A DNA stretch of 64,000 nt from Ignavibacteriota bacterium (GTDB lineage Bacteria; Bacteroidota; Ignavibacteria; UBA10030; BY39), in NCBI GenBank assembly GCA_003327435.1, contig QOQV01000008.1, positions 1-64,000 of the forward strand, read 5' to 3'. Below, in pieces: positions 18,571 to 32,237 of the stretch; position 1 is the stretch's first letter, and each line of letters opens with the position of its first letter. Below the pieces are notes generated by a model. The model made no database searches. It was not told where the DNA came from and saw only the letters and a program-made list of their open reading frames with translations. Both the position numbers and the translations under genes were made by a program.

Positions 18571-21500
18571 TATTCAATCCACGCACGCGCGAAGCGTGCG
18601 ACTCAAAACCGCAATATTCGAGCGCACTCTTTACTGTTTCAATCCACGCACGCGCGAAGCGTGCGACGTACGAGGGGTATAAAACTACGGGTTGAAGCAA
18701 GGTTTCAATCCACGCACGCGCGAAGCGTGCGACCCAGAGCAGGACAACAGAGCAGAGCAGAGGAATCGTTTCAATCCACGCACGCGCGAAGCGTGCGACC
18801 AGAAGGTAATAATGAAGTAACATTTTACGATAGTGTTTCAATCCACGCACGCGCGAAGCGTGCGACCGTCTTCGCTATAATTTTCTTTTAAACATTTCTC
18901 ACGTTTCAATCCACGCACGCGCGAAGCGTGCGACAAGTTGTTTGTCCTGTGTTATTAGTTCCACTAAAGTTTCAATCCACGCACGCGCGAAGCGTGCGAC
19001 TTATAATAATAAAGGTAAAAGAATAAGTAAGGAGTTTCAATCCACGCACGCGCGAAGCGTGCGACATGGAGATTTAAAAATGAATAACAATAACAAAGGT
19101 TTCAATCCACGCACGCGCGAAGCGTGCGACCCGCCACAATTTCCTTCATACCCATCCCAATTATAGTTTCAATCCACGCACGCGCGAAGCGTGCGACTAA
19201 TTGCCCTTGCTTGCGGTTTTTTATTTTTTAAAGTTTCAATCCACGCACGCGCGAAGCGTGCGACAGGTAACCGAATCAGGTAACTGCATCAGGTAACCGT
19301 TTCAATCCACGCACGCGCGAAGCGTGCGACATCGGACGGCTATCCACAACTCGTTGCCAATAAGGTTTCAATCCACGCACGCGCGAAGCGTGCGACTGTA
19401 TTTGTTGTTGGTAATGGGGCGCACGAAGATGTTTCAATCCACGCACGCGCGAAGCGTGCGACGCAGTGTGGTAAGATACTTTGATATTGAATCAGAGTTT
19501 CAATCCACGCACGCGCGAAGCGTGCGACCATATTCTTCTTTACTTTTAATAATTGTATCAATTGTTTCAATCCACGCACGCGCGAAGCGTGCGACCTTAA
19601 CTGCATATTCCATTTGTTTGATGGATATGGTTTCAATCCACGCACGCGCGAAGCGTGCGACAATTTTTATTGCTTCACTCTTCCACATATCTTTTAGTTT
19701 CAATCCACGCACGCGCGAAGCGTGCGACCATCTGTTGTCAATTCGATATAAGCCTTAGTTCTTGTTTCAATCCACGCACGCGCGAAGCGTGCGACCTATA
19801 TTCATTTTATGATTTTATTGGATTTAACAGTTTCAATCCACGCACGCGCGAAGCGTGCGACAAAAGTCTCTTATATCCTTATCGTTAATCGTTGGGTTTC
19901 AATCCACGCACGCGCGAAGCGTGCGACGGGCTTTCTCTATAGATAAATTACTTATATCGAAGTTTCAATCCACGCACGCGCGAAGCGTGCGACCATAAGC
20001 AATGCATACGATATTCATTACTCAGGTGTTTCAATCCACGCACGCGCGAAGCGTGCGACTTTAGAAACATTGAAAAAATTAAATTTAATAAATGGTTTCA
20101 ATCCACGCACGCGCGAAGCGTGCGACACTCTTTCAATAGATTTTGGGCTTTCTCCAGTGAGTTTCAATCCACGCACGCGCGAAGCGTGCGACCGCAAGGG
20201 AAGGTCAAGAATTTATATCCTCAAAGTTTCAATCCACGCACGCGCGAAGCGTGCGACACTCTGCAAGTGGCTGGATGAGGTGCCCGAGTATGTTTCAATC
20301 CACGCACGCGCGAAGCGTGCGACCTGTAAGTTATTTTAAATATGTGCTTGCACCTACGTTTCAATCCACGCACGCGCGAAGCGTGCGACTTTACTATCGA
20401 GACTCTTGATAATACTATAATTCTAGTTTCAATCCACGCACGCGCGAAGCGTGCGACACCAATAGCACTTTTTTTATTCGCTATCGGATGCGTTTCAATC
20501 CACGCACGCGCGAAGCGTGCGACCTGATGCGGTTCCTGATTCGTCCAGAGCAGGACAGTTTCAATCCACGCACGCGCGAAGCGTGCGACCTTGCCTTAAC
20601 CCATAGTTTTATACCCCTTTTTAGTTTCAATCCACGCACGCGCGAAGCGTGCGACTTAAGCGGTATCAATACCGCAATAGTTTAGGTTGGGTTTCAATCC
20701 ACGCACGCGCGAAGCGTGCGACCCTACCAGCCGAGCGCCAGCGACCGAGCCAATAACCGTTTCAATCCACGCACGCGCGAAGCGTGCGACTGAAAGAGAT
20801 TACGCACTTGTTAAAGAAATAAATGTTTCAATCCACGCACGCGCGAAGCGTGCGACTCAATTTTACTATTTCGTTAAACATTTCGATTATAGTTTCAATC
20901 CACGCACGCGCGAAGCGTGCGACCCAGTTTTAGTTAGAGTTGTAGATGTTTCGGATAATGTTTCAATCCACGCACGCGCGAAGCGTGCGACAATTAGAAT
21001 TGGAATATACCATCCCATCCATGTGTTTCAATCCACGCACGCGCGAAGCGTGCGACGTATTCCTATAGTATCAGTAGGATTATCAAACTCGTTTCAATCC
21101 ACGCACGCGCGAAGCGTGCGACTTAAATAAATCTGTTTTTGTGTTCATAATGTTTAAGTTTCAATCCACGCACGCGCGAAGCGTGCGACGGAAACATTTT
21201 ATTTCCTCATCATAAAATATAAGTTTCAATCCACGCACGCGCGAAGCGTGCGACGAGCAGGAGAGCAGGACAACAGAGCAGAGGAATCGTTTCAATCCAC
21301 GCACGCGCGAAGCGTGCGACCCGACATTCGAGGCAACCTTCACAGCCGCCATCGTTTCAATCCACGCACGCGCGAAGCGTGCGACTTGTTTTTTTGTTTT
21401 TTTATTTTTTTGTTATTTGGTTTCAATCCACGCACGCGCGAAGCGTGCGACTTGAGAATTTTATAGAGCATTTTCTCATTTTTAAGTTTCAATCCACGCA

Positions 21501-23434
21501 CGCGCGAAGCGTGCGACCATCAGGTAATATCGGAGCATTCTGGGAGCATCAGGTTTCAATCCACGCACGCGCGAAGCGTGCGACTAAGAGTTTTTTGTCT
21601 TATTTAATATAAAAAATAGTTTCAATCCACGCACGCGCGAAGCGTGCGACAATTACCCCCTCCAATTCGCTGTAGTGATATCCTGTTTCAATCCACGCAC
21701 GCGCGAAGCGTGCGACCCTGGGAGCACAATATACCTAACGGAGCATCCTGGTTTCAATCCACGCACGCGCGAAGCGTGCGACTATTTCGGTAGGGGTATG
21801 TTACAGATTCCTAAAAAGTTTCAATCCACGCACGCGCGAAGCGTGCGACTCGTTAAATGGTTCAAAGGATGGAAAGCACAAGGTTTCAATCCACGCACGC
21901 GCGAAGCGTGCGACCGATTATACTTATAGTGAGGCGGTAGAAATATTGTTTCAATCCACGCACGCGCGAAGCGTGCGACACTATACACTACACCGAAATA
22001 TCGGTGTTATACCGGTTTCAATCCACGCACGCGCGAAGCGTGCGACTATTGTCATAGACTTGCTCAGATATTATAATATGTTTCAATCCACGCACGCGCG
22101 AAGCGTGCGACTTACAATATACAATAACTATGCCATTAGTAATTGTGTTTCAATCCACGCACGCGCGAAGCGTGCGACTTCCTAAAAATAAGAATTTTTC
22201 TTAAAAATGAGAGTTTCAATCCACGCACGCGCGAAGCGTGCGACTATTACTGTATAGTTTTGTATACAGTGTATAGGTTTCAATCCACGCACGCGCGAAG
22301 CGTGCGACTATCGTAGATTTCAATTGTCTATATTGACCTTTTGTTTCAATCCACGCACGCGCGAAGCGTGCGACAATTACCCCCTCCAAATTATTATAGT
22401 GATATCCTGTTTCAATCCACGCACGCGCGAAGCGTGCGACGCAAGAGTGGTTTTTCCCGTTCCTTTTTTGCCAAGTTTCAATCCACGCACGCGCGAAGCG
22501 TGCGACAATTGCTATTATTGTAGTTTTGCTATTTAAAAAAGTGTTTCAATCCACGCACGCGCGAAGCGTGCGACTTTCATTCTCATTTTTCCTTTCTTTT
22601 AAAATAAGTTTCAATCCACGCACGCGCGAAGCGTGCGACGTTTACTTTTCAAGATAAAAATCAATTAAAAACGTTTCAATCCACGCACGCGCGAAGCGTG
22701 CGACATTGTTGAGCCAGAAGTCAAATTTTGATTAAACTCGTTTCAATCCACGCACGCGCGAAGCGTGCGACGTATAATAGACAAAAAATACATCTCCCTC
22801 ACTCGTTTCAATCCACGCACGCGCGAAGCGTGCGACCATTTGTCTGGAGCGTGGTTTGATATTACCAATGTTTCAATCCACGCACGCGCGAAGCGTGCGA
22901 CTTAATTAATATAATTATATGTGGTATAATAGTCAAGTTTCAATCCACGCACGCGCGAAGCGTGCGACGGTGTAATTGAGCAGTTCGCAATTCCAATCTG
23001 TCGTTTCAATCCACGCACGCGCGAAGCGTGCGACTAACCACATCAATTAATCTGTAACCATAACTGATAGTTTCAATCCACGCACGCGCGAAGCGTGCGA
23101 CGTTAAGCGGATGGGATTGGAGTTATATATTAAATGTTTCAATCCACGCACGCGCGAAGCGTGCGACTGAGATTCAATTAAAAGATGTTGTAGTTGAGCC
23201 AGTTTCAATCCACGCACGCGCGAAGCGTGCGACTGATACCTGGATGCATATACTTGTTGGTGTAGATAGTTTCAATCCACGCACGCGCGAAGCGTGCGAC
23301 TTGACAAAATCAATTTAAAATATTATATTATTACCGTTTCAATCCACGCACGCGCGAAGCGTGCGACTACAGATTAATTGATGTGGTTATACAGGTGCAA
23401 CAGTTTCAATCCACGCACGCGCGAAGCGTGCGAC
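18571..23434 (-). CRISPR. Type I-C CRISPR array, 74 repeats and 73 spacers
   Basis: I count 74 copies of a 32-bp repeat separated by 73 spacers of 32-36 bp. In the transcribed (minus) sense each repeat begins GTCGCACGC, has a perfect 7-bp stem CGCACGC/GCGTGCG with a 5-nt loop, and ends GTGGATTGAAAC, giving the usual ATTGAAAC handle. All copies appear identical except the one at 18571-18602, whose handle end is altered (plus-strand TATTCAATCC instead of GTTTCAATCC). A degenerate terminal repeat marks the leader-distal end, so transcription runs from the cas2 side towards 18571. Several spacer pairs overlap or are variants of each other. Open reading frames inside the array are artefacts of the repeat. 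Confidence 0.99.
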
Positions 23435-23605
23435 TGTCTATACCTTAAGTACTTATAAAATATTTTCTTATAACTATCATTCCGCTTATATTCATTTTTT
23501 TTCTTATAAAAATGGATTTTATTTTAAAAATTTGTAAAGTATTGCATTTTGCTTAATGCTAATCTTCCTACATTTTGATGTATTCTTCGGTTAGCACTCA
23601 CATAT
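23435..23605 (-). promoter_or_regulatory. CRISPR leader
   Basis: A 171-bp AT-rich stretch without a gene, between the cas2 stop and the first repeat. It lies upstream of the array in the transcribed sense and at the end opposite the degenerate repeat. It should hold the array promoter and the signals for spacer integration; I could not identify an integration-host-factor site with confidence. Confidence 0.8.
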
Positions 23606-23896
23606 TTAAAAAATAAATGTGTCATCTGCTCGAATATTTTTACTAACTCCAAAATTCTCTAATCGGTTTTTCCAATTTGATCCTAAGTAGTAGAATCTCA
23701 AACTATCCTCTTCAGGATTATAGATTGATAGTAGCTTATTCTTCAATAATTCCCATTCTCCAGGATCTAGGATACATTCAAAAACTGAATATTGTGCTCT
23801 TATTCCATAATTTAGACAAGCTTCTGCAACTTTCTTCAGCCGTTTCTGCCCACTCTTTGTTTTTGTTGATACATCATAACTTACAACGACCATCAT
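23606..23896 (-). CDS. cas2: CRISPR adaptation endoribonuclease-fold Cas2
   Basis: A 96-residue protein of the Cas2 ferredoxin-like fold: VVVSYDVST at the start with the conserved aspartate (Asp8), KVAEACLNYGIRAQYSVFEC, and the C-terminal strand DDTFIF. This is the form that accompanies type I-C Cas1. Cas2 bridges two Cas1 dimers in the integrase that inserts new spacers at the leader end of the array. It starts seven bases after cas1 and is the last gene before the leader. The gene is intact and of normal length. Confidence 0.96.
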   Translation of the reverse strand: MMVVVSYDVSTKTKSGQKRLKKVAEACLNYGIRAQYSVFECILDPGEWELLKNKLLSIYNPEEDSLRFYYLGSNWKNRLENFGVSKNIRADDTFIF

Positions 23897-23903
23897 AAAA
23901 GCC

Positions 23904-24947
23904 TCATTTTAAATAAAATGGTGGATAATCAGATATATCGCCTCTTATATAACGAGCAAGTAATTGTGCTTGTATATGAGGCAACAGTCCTATTGTTATT
24001 TTTTCTCCTAAGAAAGGATGAGTTATTTCTTCTTGCTTCCTTTTTTGATAAGTGGAGAGAATTTCTTTTCGAGCACCATCAGAAATTCTTACTTCACCCG
24101 ATTCCCTAAATTCAAAATCCTTAATTGTAACCTGCTTTAAATTGATAAGGTTAAGCATAATTCGGTCACCCAGATAAGCTCTCAATTCCTCCATCAAATC
24201 TAAAGCAAGCGAAGGCCTTCCTGGTCTAATTTGATGAAGAAACCCAACTTGTGGATCAAGGCCTACAGTTTCTAATGCAGAACGGACATCATTTGCAATA
24301 ATTGCGTATAAAAAGGAAAGAAGAGCATTCGGTGGATCCAGAGGTGGGCGTTTTGATCTCTGAGTAAATTTAAAATCATCTTTTTGTGCTGTTATTAAGT
24401 TAGACAGAACACTGAAATAAGTATTAGCACATTCGCCTTCGTATCCTATTAATTCATCTAAAGTTTCTACTTCCTTTATATTTTTTAACCTGTAACCTAA
24501 TAATTCTGCTGCTTTAGTTACTGAATCCGGACAATTATCAGGGTGATTTCTTTGATGTCTTAAAAGCAAATACCTGTAGTTTGAAACCTTTGCGGCTATT
24601 ATCGGTCGTGCTATTTTTAAGGATTCTGTTTTTGAATCAGATAATGCATATTGCGATTTTCTGAGAAGAACATTTCCCTGCTGTTTTCCATATACACGAG
24701 CAAGGAATTGACCGGTTTCTGTTAAATAACTAATTCCAACATTATTTTCAGCACAGTAAGCCATCAATTGAGGTGTGAGTGGTTTGAATCCAAAGCAAAC
24801 AATATTTTCAATCGTACGTATGGGAGCTTGAAATGCTTTTTTCCAGTTTCCTTCGGAATCTTTAATCTCAACCACAAATGTTTCTTGTTCTTTTCTAACA
24901 TAGGCATCATCCGAAGTTATGTATAATGTGTTTAGATGTTTTCTCAT
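23904..24947 (-). CDS. cas1: CRISPR integrase Cas1 (type I-C)
   Basis: A 347-residue protein, normal for type I-C Cas1. The N-terminal beta domain is followed by the helical catalytic domain with Glu170 in GYEGECANTYF, His238 in VGFLHQIRPGRPSLALDLME, and Asp250/Glu253. These are the metal-binding residues of the integrase. The start overlaps the end of cas4 by four bases and the end is seven bases from cas2, so Cas4-Cas1-Cas2 form a tight adaptation module. All catalytic residues are present, so the module is likely functional. Confidence 0.97.
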   Translation of the reverse strand: MRKHLNTLYITSDDAYVRKEQETFVVEIKDSEGNWKKAFQAPIRTIENIVCFGFKPLTPQLMAYCAENNVGISYLTETGQFLARVYGKQQGNVLLRKSQYALSDSKTESLKIARPIIAAKVSNYRYLLLRHQRNHPDNCPDSVTKAAELLGYRLKNIKEVETLDELIGYEGECANTYFSVLSNLITAQKDDFKFTQRSKRPPLDPPNALLSFLYAIIANDVRSALETVGLDPQVGFLHQIRPGRPSLALDLMEELRAYLGDRIMLNLINLKQVTIKDFEFRESGEVRISDGARKEILSTYQKRKQEEITHPFLGEKITIGLLPHIQAQLLARYIRGDISDYPPFYLK

Positions 24948-25567
24948 ACGTTGTACAATTCTTTAATGTAGTTTTTCAATTTCTTGTGATTTAGCGCTTT
25001 TGGCTGACAAACAGTTATCAAAGAGCAATTTCTGCATTTACTTGAATATTCTACAATCGGTACTTTACTATCAGCAATCATCTTTCTTACTTTGTCAATT
25101 ACTTCCTCTGTTTGGGTCCGTAGCTCAGAAGTTATATCAATTATATTTCTTCTACGAATTTTACCATAAAAGAAAGCAGCTATATTGATTTTTGTATTTA
25201 ACATTTCTTCAAGACAAAAAACCTGAGCACATAATTGCACTTTGTCGCTAATATCTTCTTTTGGTTCGCCAGCTTTAAATTCGACAGGTAGAATTTGCTT
25301 TCCATTTTTAGTTTGTCTGAATTCAACAACATCACATCTTCCAACTAATCCATATCTGTAAGAATGAATTCTTAAGCTGTAGACAGTTTTAACATTACCT
25401 CTCGTTTCATATGATTCAGCATCTACTTTTTCGTGTAAAATTTTTCCGCGAACAGTAAAGAGATTTTCCTGCCAAACATCGTCAATGTGGATAAGTCCAC
25501 ATTGACGAGGGCAGAAAATATAATGTTGCAAAGAATTTATCATTATAAAATTGTCTTCGGTGTACAT
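24944..25567 (-). CDS. cas4: CRISPR adaptation nuclease Cas4
   Basis: A 207-residue RecB-family nuclease with an iron-sulfur cluster. An N-terminal cysteine lies in YIFCPRQC (Cys19 or Cys23), and three C-terminal cysteines in KCRNCSLITVC (Cys178, 181, 187). The nuclease core shows Asp79 in GRCDVVEF and Glu96/Lys98 in PVEFKAG. Cas4 trims prespacers and helps select those next to a correct PAM before Cas1-Cas2 integration. It overlaps cas1 by four bases and is separated from cas7 by a 214-bp REP-hairpin cluster, unusual inside a cas operon. Confidence 0.96.
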   Translation of the reverse strand: MYTEDNFIMINSLQHYIFCPRQCGLIHIDDVWQENLFTVRGKILHEKVDAESYETRGNVKTVYSLRIHSYRYGLVGRCDVVEFRQTKNGKQILPVEFKAGEPKEDISDKVQLCAQVFCLEEMLNTKINIAAFFYGKIRRRNIIDITSELRTQTEEVIDKVRKMIADSKVPIVEYSSKCRNCSLITVCQPKALNHKKLKNYIKELYNV

Positions 25568-25781: not shown

Positions 25782-26627
25782 TCATAATTCCACCATCTTA
25801 AATGTTTCTGAAAATTTGTTACCATCAAGAAGAATTTCATAATCGGAAAATTCACGAGCTGGTCCTTCTGATAATTTATTGTGTTTCACTCTTTCGAATA
25901 ACTTGTGTGCAGAATGATTACCCAATGCGGTTTTATGTTTAAATACAATTAATTTTCTAGTATTCATTTCACCCCTTGCAGCAGAGCGGTCGTGCTCGAA
26001 CATATTTTGCATTGCTTCAAAAAACAGATTGAGGTCTTCGTCGCTAAATCCTGTTTGATTAGCAAGATGTGCAGAAATAAATCCGTGTGTTCTGTATAAA
26101 CCGTAAGGCACTGTGTATTTACGACCCATTTCGGAACCACCCGTCTCTGATCTTTCCTCTGTTGTTTTGGCAACACGAGTAATACTATGTTCAAGAGCAA
26201 CAATTGGATCTACAGAGCGAGCGAATGTTAGTTGTACCGGACCACGAACTTGCCCAGCATTCTTACCTGTTGACATAACAGCGCCAAATGTTCTAATGTC
26301 ATAATAATTTTTACACATCCAAATTCTTGCAGCTTCGGTTTTGTCACCTTTTTCTTTTTTACTTACTTCATCGTCTTCGTGAGCTTTATCAATTAGAGTA
26401 TTAAGCACAGCTTTCTCCTTAATAAAAATATCAAAGGGTGATTTTTCTTCTTTTGTCATCAAAACATAGTTTCTAACTTTCCTTTTTATACAAACATCAG
26501 TTACAAGTCCGTGTCCGGTTTCTGCATCAATGCGGGGTAAATTTCCGGCATCGGGGTCACCGTTTGGATTTCCATCTTTTACATCAAAATAAAAAACAAA
26601 GTCATAACGATTTTTAATCGGTTCCAT
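25782..26627 (-). CDS. cas7: Cascade backbone subunit Cas7 (Csd2, type I-C)
   Basis: A 281-residue Csd2/Cas7 protein. Typical features are [20 protein letters not shown] near the start, [12 protein letters not shown], the thumb-like [20 protein letters not shown], and [16 protein letters not shown]. Multiple copies form the filament that binds the crRNA spacer in the type I-C complex. It follows cas8c by 20 bases with a good ribosome site (AAAGGAGAAAG) before its ATG. Length and motifs are normal. Confidence 0.96.
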
Positions 26628-26647: not shown

Positions 26648-27034
26648 TTAGTTTTTGTTTGAATTAATTTCACTTTCTTCTTTATCAGATTTCTTTGTAA
26701 AGAAATCCTGTCTTTGATGATAGTATCCAATTGCAAAGTTTGCCTGTTCATTTAAAGATAGATTTGTAGGGAGTGAACTTATTTCCGAGATTATCTCACC
26801 AATTAGTTTTTCGAAATAAATTTTCCTGCCATCGTTCAATTTTTTCAGATGAGAATTTTTCAAACTTAGCAAACGAGGGAAAACAGTTATTGGACTGCTT
26901 GAAGCTGCACCATAATACCTATCTCTGATAGTTGTGTTGATTCCAGGGTTTGCTTCTTCCTGAATTTTCTCCAGAACAGCGAAAAGCCTTCCTGTTCTGT
27001 AAGCAACATTTGTGTTGTTTGGATCGAGTGACAT
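26648..27034 (-). CDS. cas11c: Embedded small subunit Cas11c (internal start in cas8c)
   Basis: Within cas8c and in the same frame, AAAGGAG lies six bases before an ATG at 27034, giving a 128-residue protein that begins [20 protein letters not shown]. Type I-C systems are known to make the Cas11 small subunit from an internal start in cas8c, and length, position and the near-perfect Shine-Dalgarno support the same here. Cas11c stabilises the bound non-target strand in the complex. The product would be helical and shares its sequence with the Cas8c C-terminus. Confidence 0.82.
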
Positions 27035-28393
27035 AGTTATCTCCTTTTGATTTAATTTTTGAATTCTGATTTTTCTGTTTAAACAAGCTTTTAAGATTGC
27101 TGCACGAGTACGATTAACGGTTTGTTCGGCTCTTATTCTACGAATACATTGCTGCATTAAAGATTGTGGATATGGATATCCATCAATAATGCTTTCTATA
27201 ACCGCTCCGGCAAGATTAGGCGGAACATTTTCCATTTTATATTGCAATGCAGTTGCAGAAAGAATTTGATATAGTGAAAGATATTTTTGTTCTTTTGGTC
27301 CGTGAATAATCTCAAAATCATCAAAGTGCTGTTTGATGTTTTTTCCAAAATCTTCAAGCGACGGAGCCTTCCAGAACCTTACAGATATTCTTGCTGCATT
27401 CGGGGCTAATCCTAAAACATAAAAGTGATTTGTTCGTTCTGATGAAAGTTGACCTGTTTGAATAGCTTCAAATAATTTTTTGATTTTATTAACGCCGGCA
27501 TCGGGATTATCCTGCTCAGATTTTTGCATTGCGATTATCCAGGGGAAAATTTCTTCTGGATTAACTTCAGTGGTTGGTTTTTCAGACCAGAATACAATTG
27601 TGGAATCGGCAATCGTGATTTTATTTTGTGAGTCTTTTCCCAACAAAACATTTAATGCCGTAGTGTAAGCAAATGCTGCACGATTGCTAATTGGTGCGTT
27701 ATAGTTTTGAGTTTTATTGTAAGAGTTAAATGCCGGTAGGTTATATGAAACTAATGCGCCGCCTGATGTATTTCCACCTCTTACACCTTTAATTGATGGA
27801 TGCAATCTAGCAACAGTTGCTTTCTCTCCGGTTATTAGACATGTGCTATCAAAATTCTCTTCTATTTTTAATGTTTTATCTCTGATTTCATCGCAGAGAC
27901 TACTGTGTTGTTCTCCATCAATTTTAAAGACAATGAAAGGATTCTCCTCAAGGATTTTATTCCATAATTCAGCGTATCCAGAATTTTCTATTTGCTGTAC
28001 GGGATTATTTTCAAGAAATTCAATTAAATATTTTATGCTTGGCGAATCCTCAATATCAATTTCATTTTTAATTCTATCCTTAAACAAATTAAATCTTTCC
28101 TCAATGTCATCACGGTTTCGTGGATTTGCACCGAGAGCATATTCAATATTATCCCAAAGTAAGTTAGCCGCTTTACCAACCGTTCTCTTAACGGATTGTG
28201 GCACTAAAAATTTTTTTGCTCTTTTCTTTCTACCCTCACCTTCTCTCATATCTTCAATTGCAACAAATTTCCCAGTCCTATCAATTACAATTCTGTACGG
28301 TATTTCTTTCCATTCCCAACCTTCGGGTGCAATGTGGCTGTTTGGGTCGACAGCTTTTCTTTGATAATATTCATACAATGCTTGTAGTATCAT
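26648..28393 (-). CDS. cas8c: Cascade large subunit Cas8c (Csd1)
   Basis: A 581-residue Csd1-family protein: [13 protein letters not shown] at the start, [34 protein letters not shown] near 185, and [21 protein letters not shown]. Cas8c recognises the PAM and recruits Cas3. Its start overlaps the cas5c end by four bases. About 128 codons before its end there is a strong internal ribosome site and ATG, so the 3' part very likely also encodes the small subunit Cas11c. The gene appears intact. Confidence 0.95.
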
Positions 28394-29148
28394 CTTCTTA
28401 TCTCCTCACTTGTTATTGGAGGTATGTTCACAACGCCATTTTCGATTTTTGCCTTAAAGAACATTGGTTTTGGATCATCTAAATTGGTGAAGTCCAGATC
28501 GTAAAGCATAAAGCCAAGTTCTCTCGTTTCATCAATTGGTTTGGCAGGATTGGTTTCAAAATCTTTTATCAATTTGAAGCTACAGCTAAACTCTCTCGTT
28601 CCAAGATATGGTTGATTGAAACATTGCCCCTTAGATGCACGTCGTTCGAAAATAGCAAGATATTTTCCGGGTGTTTCATCTTTACGATATAAATCTTTTT
28701 GCTCCTGCCAATACTTAAATTCTTCCAAATAAAACTCTCTTTCTTCCGGCTCCATTAAAAAATCGGGAATTGCTTTGTGGTTATTATTTTTTCTTTCAGC
28801 TATAGGAATGTATTCAAGAATTGCGAAGAAGCGGTATTTAACATCTTTTAGAAAATAACCTGCTCTTTGTTGGCGATTATCTTCGATTATAATTCCAGTT
28901 TTGTTAGAAGCAATAGCCCCAACCTCATTTCTTCTTACTGAAATCCACTTGATAGGATTTAGTATTTCAATTTTTGTCGGATGCCAACGAATTGCTAGTT
29001 TCCAGAATATTGATTCAAAAACTGCTCTAACAGCAGATGGTGTTGGGACATCGTAGCTTACTCTTTCGACTTTCATCTCAGGTCGTGTAAAGCAAGCATA
29101 ATCACCCCAAACCTCAAGGCAGAATGGTTTGTAATTTAAACTATTCAT
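28390..29148 (-). CDS. cas5c: Cas5c (Cas5d), pre-crRNA processing subunit
   Basis: A 252-residue Cas5d-type protein: FCLEVWGDYACFTRPEMKVE at the start, SYDVPTPSAVRAVFESIFWK, and the signature FERRASKGQCFNQPYLGTRE near 167. In type I-C, which has no Cas6, Cas5c cleaves the repeat RNA just 3' of the hairpin and stays bound to the 5' handle. The strong 7-bp hairpin of this array fits that role. I did not map the exact catalytic triad. It overlaps cas8c by four bases and is 85 bases downstream of cas3. Confidence 0.94.
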   Translation of the reverse strand: MNSLNYKPFCLEVWGDYACFTRPEMKVERVSYDVPTPSAVRAVFESIFWKLAIRWHPTKIEILNPIKWISVRRNEVGAIASNKTGIIIEDNRQQRAGYFLKDVKYRFFAILEYIPIAERKNNNHKAIPDFLMEPEEREFYLEEFKYWQEQKDLYRKDETPGKYLAIFERRASKGQCFNQPYLGTREFSCSFKLIKDFETNPAKPIDETRELGFMLYDLDFTNLDDPKPMFFKAKIENGVVNIPPITSEEIRR

Positions 29149-29233: not shown

Positions 29234-31459
29234 TTATATTACCTCATTTCCGTAACTCCAGTCTTTTTCATTTGCCAGCAGTCCTAATCCGGGTTGATAG
29301 AGATTATTATCACATTGAACCCAATATCCATTAATTTCTTTAATGTATCCTGCTTCTCTAATTTTATTAAATATATTAATGGTTACATTAACAATGTATC
29401 GTTGCAGTTTTCTCAGTAATTCTTTCGAAGGACCTGCATATTTTAATTCATCAATTAATTTATCACTATTCTTATACTTAACAATTATGCTCGTCTGTTT
29501 TTTGTCATCGATCATATTAAAATTTTCTGCAAAGGTTTTGAATTGAAATTCAAATTTTGAAGAATCTCTAACTAAATGGTTATAAAAGTCAGCTGCATCA
29601 AATGAATTGAGATTTGAATAAAGATATTTGAAATACTTTGAATAAAGAGTTGGTGTGAACTCTTTTTCCTGATAATTTCTTAAAATTGCTTTCCCAGCAT
29701 CCTCGGCCTTTCTTAAAAATCCAGATGGTGAAGGATTTGGCGGTAAGAAGACATATACATTTCCACTTTCTCTCAATATATTTTCTCTATTGCATCTACC
29801 AGCTGCTTGAGCTATTGAATCGAGCCCGGTCAATGCACGATACACAGCAGGAAAATCAATATCAACGCCAGCTTCAACAAGCTGTGTACTTATAACTCTA
29901 ATGGACTCATTGTTTTTTAATTTATTTTTTATATTAGTAATTACTTCGCTTCTTTCCTCTCCGCACATAAAACCTGAAAGGTGAATCGTTCCTTCAGGCA
30001 TAAGTTTGTGAAGTTCTCGGCAATCCTTTCTTGTGTTGACGATACATAATACCTGTTCATGTTGAATAAGCCGTTCTGCAATTTCACACCATTCTAATGT
30101 TTTGTTTAAATCATTTGGAATGTGAAAATTAACCCTCTTAAAATCCTTTGCAAGTGAATCCGGATCATTAATTATCTCTGTTACATTTTCTAATCCATTA
30201 ATAATATTAGGGGGATTGCCAATTTTACCAACCAGTGCTGGTTGAGTGGCGCTCATTAAAAGTACAGTAACTCCAAAATATTTTACCAATCCATTAAGAA
30301 CTGATAAAATTGGTTTGAAATATTCTTGTGGTAACATTTGAGCTTCGTCTAAAATAATTACACTGTTAACTATGTTATGAATTTTTCTGCAAACGGAAGT
30401 TTTATTACCAAACAATGATTCAAACAACTGAACATTTGTTGTTACGATAATTGGTGCATCCCAATTTTCACTAGATATTCTATTCTTATGATTTTCTTTT
30501 TCTGGGTCAAGATTGCTATGATGCTCTACAACCTGATCTTCACCAAATACAGATTTGAAAATTTCTGCTGTTTGTTCAATTATACTAGTATATGGAATAG
30601 CTACAATTATTCTTTTCTTATTGTACTTTATTGCGTGTTCTAAAGCAAAAGCCATCGATGATAATGTTTTTCCTCCACCTGTTGGAACTGTTAATGAAAA
30701 AAATCCCGGCTCTAATTTTGCTTTTTCCCGACATTGTTGAAGAATTTTGTTTCTCTTTTGATTTAATTCTGAATCTGGTTTCATTCTACTCATATATTCA
30801 TCAAATTTTTTCTTTAATTCCTCAAGACTAAAATATCCACCTCTTTCTTTTTCTTCCATATATTTTTCTGTATCAAGAAAGTCAGCATCAACGAGGCAGG
30901 AGAAAAGCATTCGTATCCAGTGATGAAGTTGTTCACTGTCAAAATTATTATTTCGAAGTATCGACGGGGGTGATTGAGGAATGGGCGTTTCTTTAAACTG
31001 TTTAGCTTCTTCCACTTTTTTGATTTTTTCAAGATCATCAATAATAATATTTTGATTCTCATCAAAAATTCTTTGTGAAAGCTGTGGAATCCAATCTGGC
31101 AATCCCGAATGATGCCCAGCAATAACATAAGCTAATGCTTTTGCCATCGGTGAGTTTTTTAATTTTTCGAAAAGATAAATAGCGCCTACTGCACTGTGAT
31201 CAGGCCTTCCTGAAAAACCTTCAATATGTGCTTCTTCATCATAATAACCGGTCTCTTTCCTTATATATTTTTGCCAATCAGGATGGTACTTTCCAAGATC
31301 ATGTAAGTAACCAGCTAATTCAGCCCAGTCACTATTTGAAAATTCTGATGCGAATTTTGCGGCAATCTTAGCAGTTGCTTTTAAGTGTTCTTCTAAAAGA
31401 TGTGGTCGTGCCCATAACTCATTGTTGAGTCGCTTGATGTGCGCTATAAAATTTTTCAT
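29234..31459 (-). CDS. cas3: CRISPR nuclease-helicase Cas3
   Basis: A 741-residue single-chain Cas3. The N-terminal HD nuclease has GYLHDLGKYHPDW (His53-Asp54), DHSAVGAIYL and IAGHHSGLPDW. The SF2 helicase has Walker A TVPTGGGKTLSSMAF, DEAQ in VIILDEAQMLPQ, motif III SATQPAL, and the C-terminal motif DSIAQAAGRCNRE. Cas3 is recruited after target recognition and degrades the non-target strand. All expected motifs are present. It lies 22 bases downstream of the unknown 251-residue gene and heads the effector genes. Confidence 0.97.
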   Translation of the reverse strand: MKNFIAHIKRLNNELWARPHLLEEHLKATAKIAAKFASEFSNSDWAELAGYLHDLGKYHPDWQKYIRKETGYYDEEAHIEGFSGRPDHSAVGAIYLFEKLKNSPMAKALAYVIAGHHSGLPDWIPQLSQRIFDENQNIIIDDLEKIKKVEEAKQFKETPIPQSPPSILRNNNFDSEQLHHWIRMLFSCLVDADFLDTEKYMEEKERGGYFSLEELKKKFDEYMSRMKPDSELNQKRNKILQQCREKAKLEPGFFSLTVPTGGGKTLSSMAFALEHAIKYNKKRIIVAIPYTSIIEQTAEIFKSVFGEDQVVEHHSNLDPEKENHKNRISSENWDAPIIVTTNVQLFESLFGNKTSVCRKIHNIVNSVIILDEAQMLPQEYFKPILSVLNGLVKYFGVTVLLMSATQPALVGKIGNPPNIINGLENVTEIINDPDSLAKDFKRVNFHIPNDLNKTLEWCEIAERLIQHEQVLCIVNTRKDCRELHKLMPEGTIHLSGFMCGEERSEVITNIKNKLKNNESIRVISTQLVEAGVDIDFPAVYRALTGLDSIAQAAGRCNRENILRESGNVYVFLPPNPSPSGFLRKAEDAGKAILRNYQEKEFTPTLYSKYFKYLYSNLNSFDAADFYNHLVRDSSKFEFQFKTFAENFNMIDDKKQTSIIVKYKNSDKLIDELKYAGPSKELLRKLQRYIVNVTINIFNKIREAGYIKEINGYWVQCDNNLYQPGLGLLANEKDWSYGNEVI

Positions 31460-31481: not shown

Positions 31482-32237
31482 CTATCCCATAATGAACCTT
31501 TTCACCTTTTTGTTCAAATCGTATCCCTCAATATCATCTCCTTCGAAGTCGTATGTATTCTCAAAACCCAACCAATTCCAGTTGTGTAAAATTCTATGTT
31601 TTATCCTTTTACTATATTTATTGTAATTGGAGTAATGATGCTTTAGCTTTGGGAAGTATTCGTACTTCTGTGGATTGACTATCGAAAAAATCCTCCTCTC
31701 TTTGAGCAAGTTTTCAACAAGTGTTTTGTCTTCTGTATTTTGTTGAAGAACAATTAAATCGCCTTCTCTTAAGTATATCTTTTTACATTTTATAAAATTA
31801 CCCTCATCTTCAACCTCTATAGTGCACCTTGTAGCAATTAATGATACTTTGATTAAAAAATCGCACACCAAATATGCATTGAACTCGTTCTGGCCAACGC
31901 GTGTGTAGCCACTTGCCAGACAATTCTCAAAATATCCGCCCTTCCTTGTGAAAATTAAACCATTTGCCTCTAGAGTTCTTATCAATTCTAACTCTGTGGC
32001 ACCCTTAAGTTTTAAAACCTGCTGAATATTTTTTACCCGTTTTCTATATTCTTCCTTGTTTATTATGGAAGATTCATAATTTGGAAATATTAAAAACATC
32101 TTGAAAGCAAGCTTGCCTGCACTCCAGATAAATTCCGAATTGTACCAGTTCTGAAGCTTTTGAATCTGTTGCCATTCCTGCTCTCCAATAAAATTTTTTC
32201 CGTCATCAGCTATCTTGTATATTAATCGCCGTGCCAT
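31482..32237 (-). CDS. Unknown 251-residue protein upstream of cas3
   Basis: I do not recognise this family. The protein is basic and soluble, with no signal or membrane segment. It starts MARRLIYKIADDGKNFIGEQ, has a helical stretch EYRKRVKNIQQVLKLKGATE, then ELELIRTLEANGLIFTRKGGYF, which could be a winged-helix DNA-binding element, followed by a beta-rich middle (CTIEVEDEGNFIKCKKIYLR). Aromatic and basic residues dominate the last 70 residues. It is 22 bases from cas3 on the same strand and 44 bases downstream of the YgiQ-type gene. It could be a cas regulator, an accessory factor, or an unrelated neighbour. Confidence 0.7.
   Translation of the reverse strand: MARRLIYKIADDGKNFIGEQEWQQIQKLQNWYNSEFIWSAGKLAFKMFLIFPNYESSIINKEEYRKRVKNIQQVLKLKGATELELIRTLEANGLIFTRKGGYFENCLASGYTRVGQNEFNAYLVCDFLIKVSLIATRCTIEVEDEGNFIKCKKIYLREGDLIVLQQNTEDKTLVENLLKERRIFSIVNPQKYEYFPKLKHHYSNYNKYSKRIKHRILHNWNWLGFENTYDFEGDDIEGYDLNKKVKRFIMG

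Follow-up and report, generated by a model that had tools for sequence, protein, structure and literature searches.

Opposite-strand overlap between two spacers of a type I-C CRISPR array in an Ignavibacteriota bacterium, and its bearing on primed adaptation

Type I-C locus and its described relatives

The type I-C array of Legionella pneumophila Toronto-2005 targets the element LME-1 (PMC5071653), and priming in this system is robust; the new captures were not enriched around the priming site and slightly favoured the same strand (PMC5071653). In one Legionella array, older and newer spacers form pairs that match overlapping stretches of one element, for which natural priming after escape was proposed (PMC5071653); overlapping I-C spacers, with natural priming as a possible cause, are already published, and such overlaps are a known feature of the subtype. 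In type I-F primed adaptation, captures come from both strands and are clustered near the primed protospacer (PMC4117759). The DNA analyzed here, termed the window, is a stretch of 64,000 nt from an Ignavibacteriota bacterium (contig QOQV01000008.1, positions 1 to 64,000), and has the same subtype and gene set as Legionella Toronto-2005. In Legionella, however, the element has been identified, protection was tested and PAM or seed mismatches occur in the older spacers, whereas the element targeted from the window is seen only through its spacers. Type I-F is a different subtype, and priming in it was shown experimentally (PMC4117759), whereas the evidence from the window is confined to sequence.

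The window carries a complete type I-C CRISPR-Cas locus on the minus strand. All seven cas genes were found by Pfam: cas3, specifying an HD nuclease and helicase (29234-31459; PF18019, PF22590, PF00270), cas5 of the Cas5d family (28390-29148; PF09704), the subtype I-C signature gene cas8c or csd1 (26648-28393; PF09709, 612 bits), cas7 (25782-26627; PF05107), cas4 (24944-25567; PF01930), cas1 (23904-24947; PF01867) and cas2 (23606-23896; PF09827). The Cas1 protein shares 85% identity with its counterpart in an Ignavibacterium MAG, from which the host can be placed as an Ignavibacteria-like bacterium. Adjoining cas3 is a reading frame of 251 aa on the same strand (31482-32237), which has no Pfam match.

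The array (18574-23434, minus strand) consists of 74 repeats of 32 nt and 73 spacers of 32-36 nt, and between it and cas2 lies an A+T-rich stretch (23435-23605, minus strand) that, judging by its position, is probably the leader. As in other type I-C arrays, the 32-nt repeat ends in GTGGATTGAAAC, the spacers are about 34 nt and the array is found downstream of cas2; this layout of repeat, spacers and array relative to cas2 matches that of 72 related arrays. The crRNA sense is that of the minus strand, in which the repeat reads GTCGCACGCTTCGCGCGTGCGTGGATTGAAAC, and the distal-most copy, at 18574, is degenerate. Three features place spacer 73 next to the leader if the array is read in the direction of cas2, in agreement with the original prediction: the ending of the repeat in GTGGATTGAAAC, the degeneracy of the copy at 18574 and the location of cas2 immediately past the opposite end. 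Spacer 73 is probably newer than spacer 68.

Overlap of spacers 68 and 73

Spacer 68 (23035-23069, minus strand, 35 nt; crRNA sense TATCAGTTATGGTTACAGATTAATTGATGTGGTTA) and spacer 73 (23368-23402, minus strand, 35 nt; crRNA sense TGTTGCACCTGTATAACCACATCAATTAATCTGTA) share a segment in opposite orientations. On the plus strand, spacer 68 begins with the 22 nt TAACCACATCAATTAATCTGTA (23035-23056), and these are exactly reverse-complementary to the 22 nt with which spacer 73 begins (23368-23389). Both segments form the crRNA 3' ends of their spacers, so that in crRNA sense the last 22 nt of each are the exact reverse complement of the other's. Joining the two spacers gives a sequence of 48 bp, TATCAGTTATGGTTACAGATTAATTGATGTGGTTATACAGGTGCAACA. 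The original prediction had described this opposite-strand overlap and the length of the joined sequence, and both are borne out. It had also spoken of neighbouring acquisitions, and here a qualification applies: the two spacers are five positions apart, with spacers 69-72 in between.

Similarity of this kind between unrelated spacers by chance has nothing in its favour beyond the A+T-rich composition of the array. When all 73 spacers were shuffled 20 times with composition retained, the longest match in any pair, on either strand, was 10-14 nt, against the 22 exact nt observed, and the local alignment score of spacers 68 and 73 is 44, compared with a best of at most 40 in 15 resamplings of dinucleotide type. 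Chance is refuted by the shuffles, and its probability is negligible.

Alternatively, the spacers could come from different places, if the common 22 nt belong to a repeated sequence, such as an inverted repeat, or to a conserved segment that occurs in two separate elements. Some targets of the array are indeed repeat-rich, as seen in spacers 3 (18734-18767), 11 (19265-19298), 30 (20524-20557), 41 (21255-21288), 45 (21518-21552) and 48 (21717-21750). The 22 nt, however, are neither palindromic nor of low complexity, and the match extends to the end of both spacers and occupies all of the overlap that is possible, in keeping with a single site. An origin in a repeated or widely conserved segment is unlikely. 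A match that fills the whole possible overlap is expected if both spacers were cut from a contiguous 48-bp site, and it is very likely that one such site was sampled twice, from both strands. This reading was also that of the original prediction, and the exact match ending at both spacer ends supports it strongly.

We consider it highly probable that the I-C machinery acquired both spacers, on separate occasions, from a single 48-bp site of a recurring mobile element. Cas4-Cas1-Cas2 would have made two separate captures from this site, and the lineage would have met the element at least twice. A separate PAM would anchor each protospacer, the two PAMs lying on opposite strands in the arrangement TTC-48 bp-GAA, and the PAM-distal ends of the two would overlap by 22 bp. 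Since it is the PAM-distal ends that overlap, both PAMs would fall beyond the 48 bp, and the array contains neither of them; TTC PAMs facing outward on both flanks are what the arrangement implies. The only stop-free frame through the joined site with its presumed PAMs would, if coding, specify SISYGYRLIDVVIQVQQ.

Overlapping spacers in other type I-C arrays

The survey set comprises 72 distinct I-C arrays, including that of the window, with 2,033 spacers and 62,352 within-array pairs; its sources were 80 loci located by means of Cas1 and 40 regions lying downstream of csd1. Nineteen pairs overlap partly, of which eight are opposite-strand and 11 same-strand. Some pairs within an array are not independent, for example 72/90 and 73/90 of array L099, which involve a duplicated spacer. 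At least one partial overlap is present in 10 of the 32 arrays with at least 20 spacers, and five of these 32 have an opposite-strand pair. Partly overlapping spacers can be expected, as a base rate, in about a third of I-C arrays of this size. Among I-C arrays, the frequency of overlaps like that of spacers 68 and 73 is ordinary, and partly overlapping pairs alone should not be taken as priming. Full-length spacer duplicates are also common (32 pairs, all same-strand). In array L051, the identical spacers 27/37 and 30/40 recur at a spacing of ten, which suggests that a block of repeats and spacers was duplicated.

Partial opposite-strand overlaps of 13-23 nt are found in L047 (spacers 35/43 and 52/87), L051 (38/43), L099 (72/90) and L107 (14/54), which are I-C arrays from Ignavibacteria and other phyla. 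In four of these five pairs it is the PAM-distal ends that overlap, as in spacers 68 and 73, and the same geometry recurs in L047 (both pairs, 23 nt each), L099 and L107. Only the L051 pair is as close in the array as spacers 68 and 73 (five positions), the other compared pairs being farther apart. In 15 cases the PAM of the partner is contained within the overlapping spacer and can be read, nearly all of them in arrays other than that of the window. TTC (6), TTT (4) and CTC (2) make up 12 of the 15, the PAM type expected for I-C. The sole readable case in the window, spacers 3/30, has TGT.

The original prediction suggested primed adaptation for the second capture. In this account the crRNA of spacer 68 recognizes an escape variant of the element, and Cas3-driven processing feeds a nearby opposite-strand protospacer to Cas1-Cas2. 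The exact overlap means that the same site or a homologous one was captured, and it is compatible with priming: only the PAM-distal portion of the target of spacer 68 is covered, which leaves room for an escape mutation in the PAM or seed alongside the exact match, and the robust priming of Legionella I-C, where overlapping older and newer pairs were taken as natural priming (PMC5071653), provides a precedent. The survey, however, shows no significant closeness in acquisition order. Five of the 19 overlapping pairs lie within five positions of each other, against 3.1 expected from random order (p = 0.15; 19 pairs give low power), as do two of the eight opposite-strand pairs, against 0.8 expected (p = 0.20, again with low power). 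The overlapping pairs likewise show no strand preference, with eight opposite-strand against 11 same-strand, and the Legionella results noted above, in which captures were not enriched near the priming site and leaned toward the same strand (PMC5071653), also speak against priming here. Priming of the second capture by spacer 68 crRNA is a tentative reading, to which we give rather less than an even chance. The original prediction is therefore partly supported, being correct as an observation and over-interpreted in this one step. A stronger version, in which I-C crRNA in this clade directs the capture of an overlapping opposite-strand protospacer with its PAM outward, and such pairs are a specific product of priming, is very doubtful.

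Independent resampling would need no priming: if many spacers were captured, unprimed, at the PAM sites of an element that is small or recurs, some would overlap by chance. The pooled overlap rate of the survey predicts about 0.8 partly overlapping pairs for a 73-spacer array, and two random captures would overlap on opposite strands in about 0.4% of cases for a 5-kb element and about 0.05% for one of 40 kb. Resampling would be improbable if a large phage had given few spacers, the 15 pairs among spacers 68-73 multiplied by 0.0005 giving only about 0.8%. We place this explanation just short of an even chance.

Target searches and other related spacers

A database search for the joined 48-bp sequence, proposed along with the original prediction, was carried out and retrieved no target from phages, plasmids, IMG/VR or genome contigs. 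The exact 22-mer had no match in IMG/VR or in the genome contigs of 84,980 species, and when the 48-mer and the entire array were run by BLAST against phages and plasmids, only chance matches and other CRISPR arrays came up. In the bacterium's own genome the sole match was the array itself, and no self-targeting spacer was found; five genomes of the family contained no target. Among 395 genomes of the phylum, with up to three mismatches allowed, 10 were matched, the level of a reversed-pattern control, while the youngest spacers matched only fragments of 20-28 nt in 391 genomes of the class (E of at least 7e-4). Degenerate patterns for spacers 71 and 65 had no match in IMG/VR, nor did some of the searches there with degenerate codon patterns of SISYGYRLIDVVIQVQQ. 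The codon patterns gave two matches that are antisense to longer frames and five that lie in short out-of-frame stretches, all of which were set aside as chance. Since no target was found, the TTC PAMs and the common element are neither confirmed nor refuted, and we infer the single target site of spacers 68 and 73 from the array. The 48-bp sequence offers a doubly confirmed probe for an element that would have attacked this Ignavibacteria lineage recently.

Four pairs of spacers in the array are related beyond random expectation: 68/73, 2/31, 3/41 and 47/58. The last three each have a local alignment score of at least 44, against a shuffle maximum of 40. With these three further pairs, repeated sampling of related elements thus appears to be a general property of the array, and the repeated encounters with related elements envisaged in the original prediction gain support from all four.

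The pairs differ in form. Spacers 47 (21651-21684) and 58 (22375-22408) have the same strand and borders and are identical at 29 of 34 positions, the five mismatches all being central, which can be read as captures at one PAM site in two variants of an element. Spacers 2 (18668-18701) and 31 (20590-20623) are on opposite strands, identical at 26 of 29 nt and co-terminal at one base; this amounts to capture of a homologous site in both orientations, with near-identical borders and apparently with PAMs about 34 bp apart at its two ends. Spacers 3 and 41 have the crRNA 5' end in common and are distinguished by their repeat units, which suggests a target with repeats that vary in copy number. Both of these, and likewise spacers 11, 30, 45 and 48, are composed of short direct repeats that are related to one another, among them GCTCT and GGTAACTGCATCA units. 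Spacers 66 (22902-22936) and 72 (23301-23335) both contain a promoter-like TTGAC(A/T)-17 nt-TATATT arrangement, in opposite orientations relative to the array.
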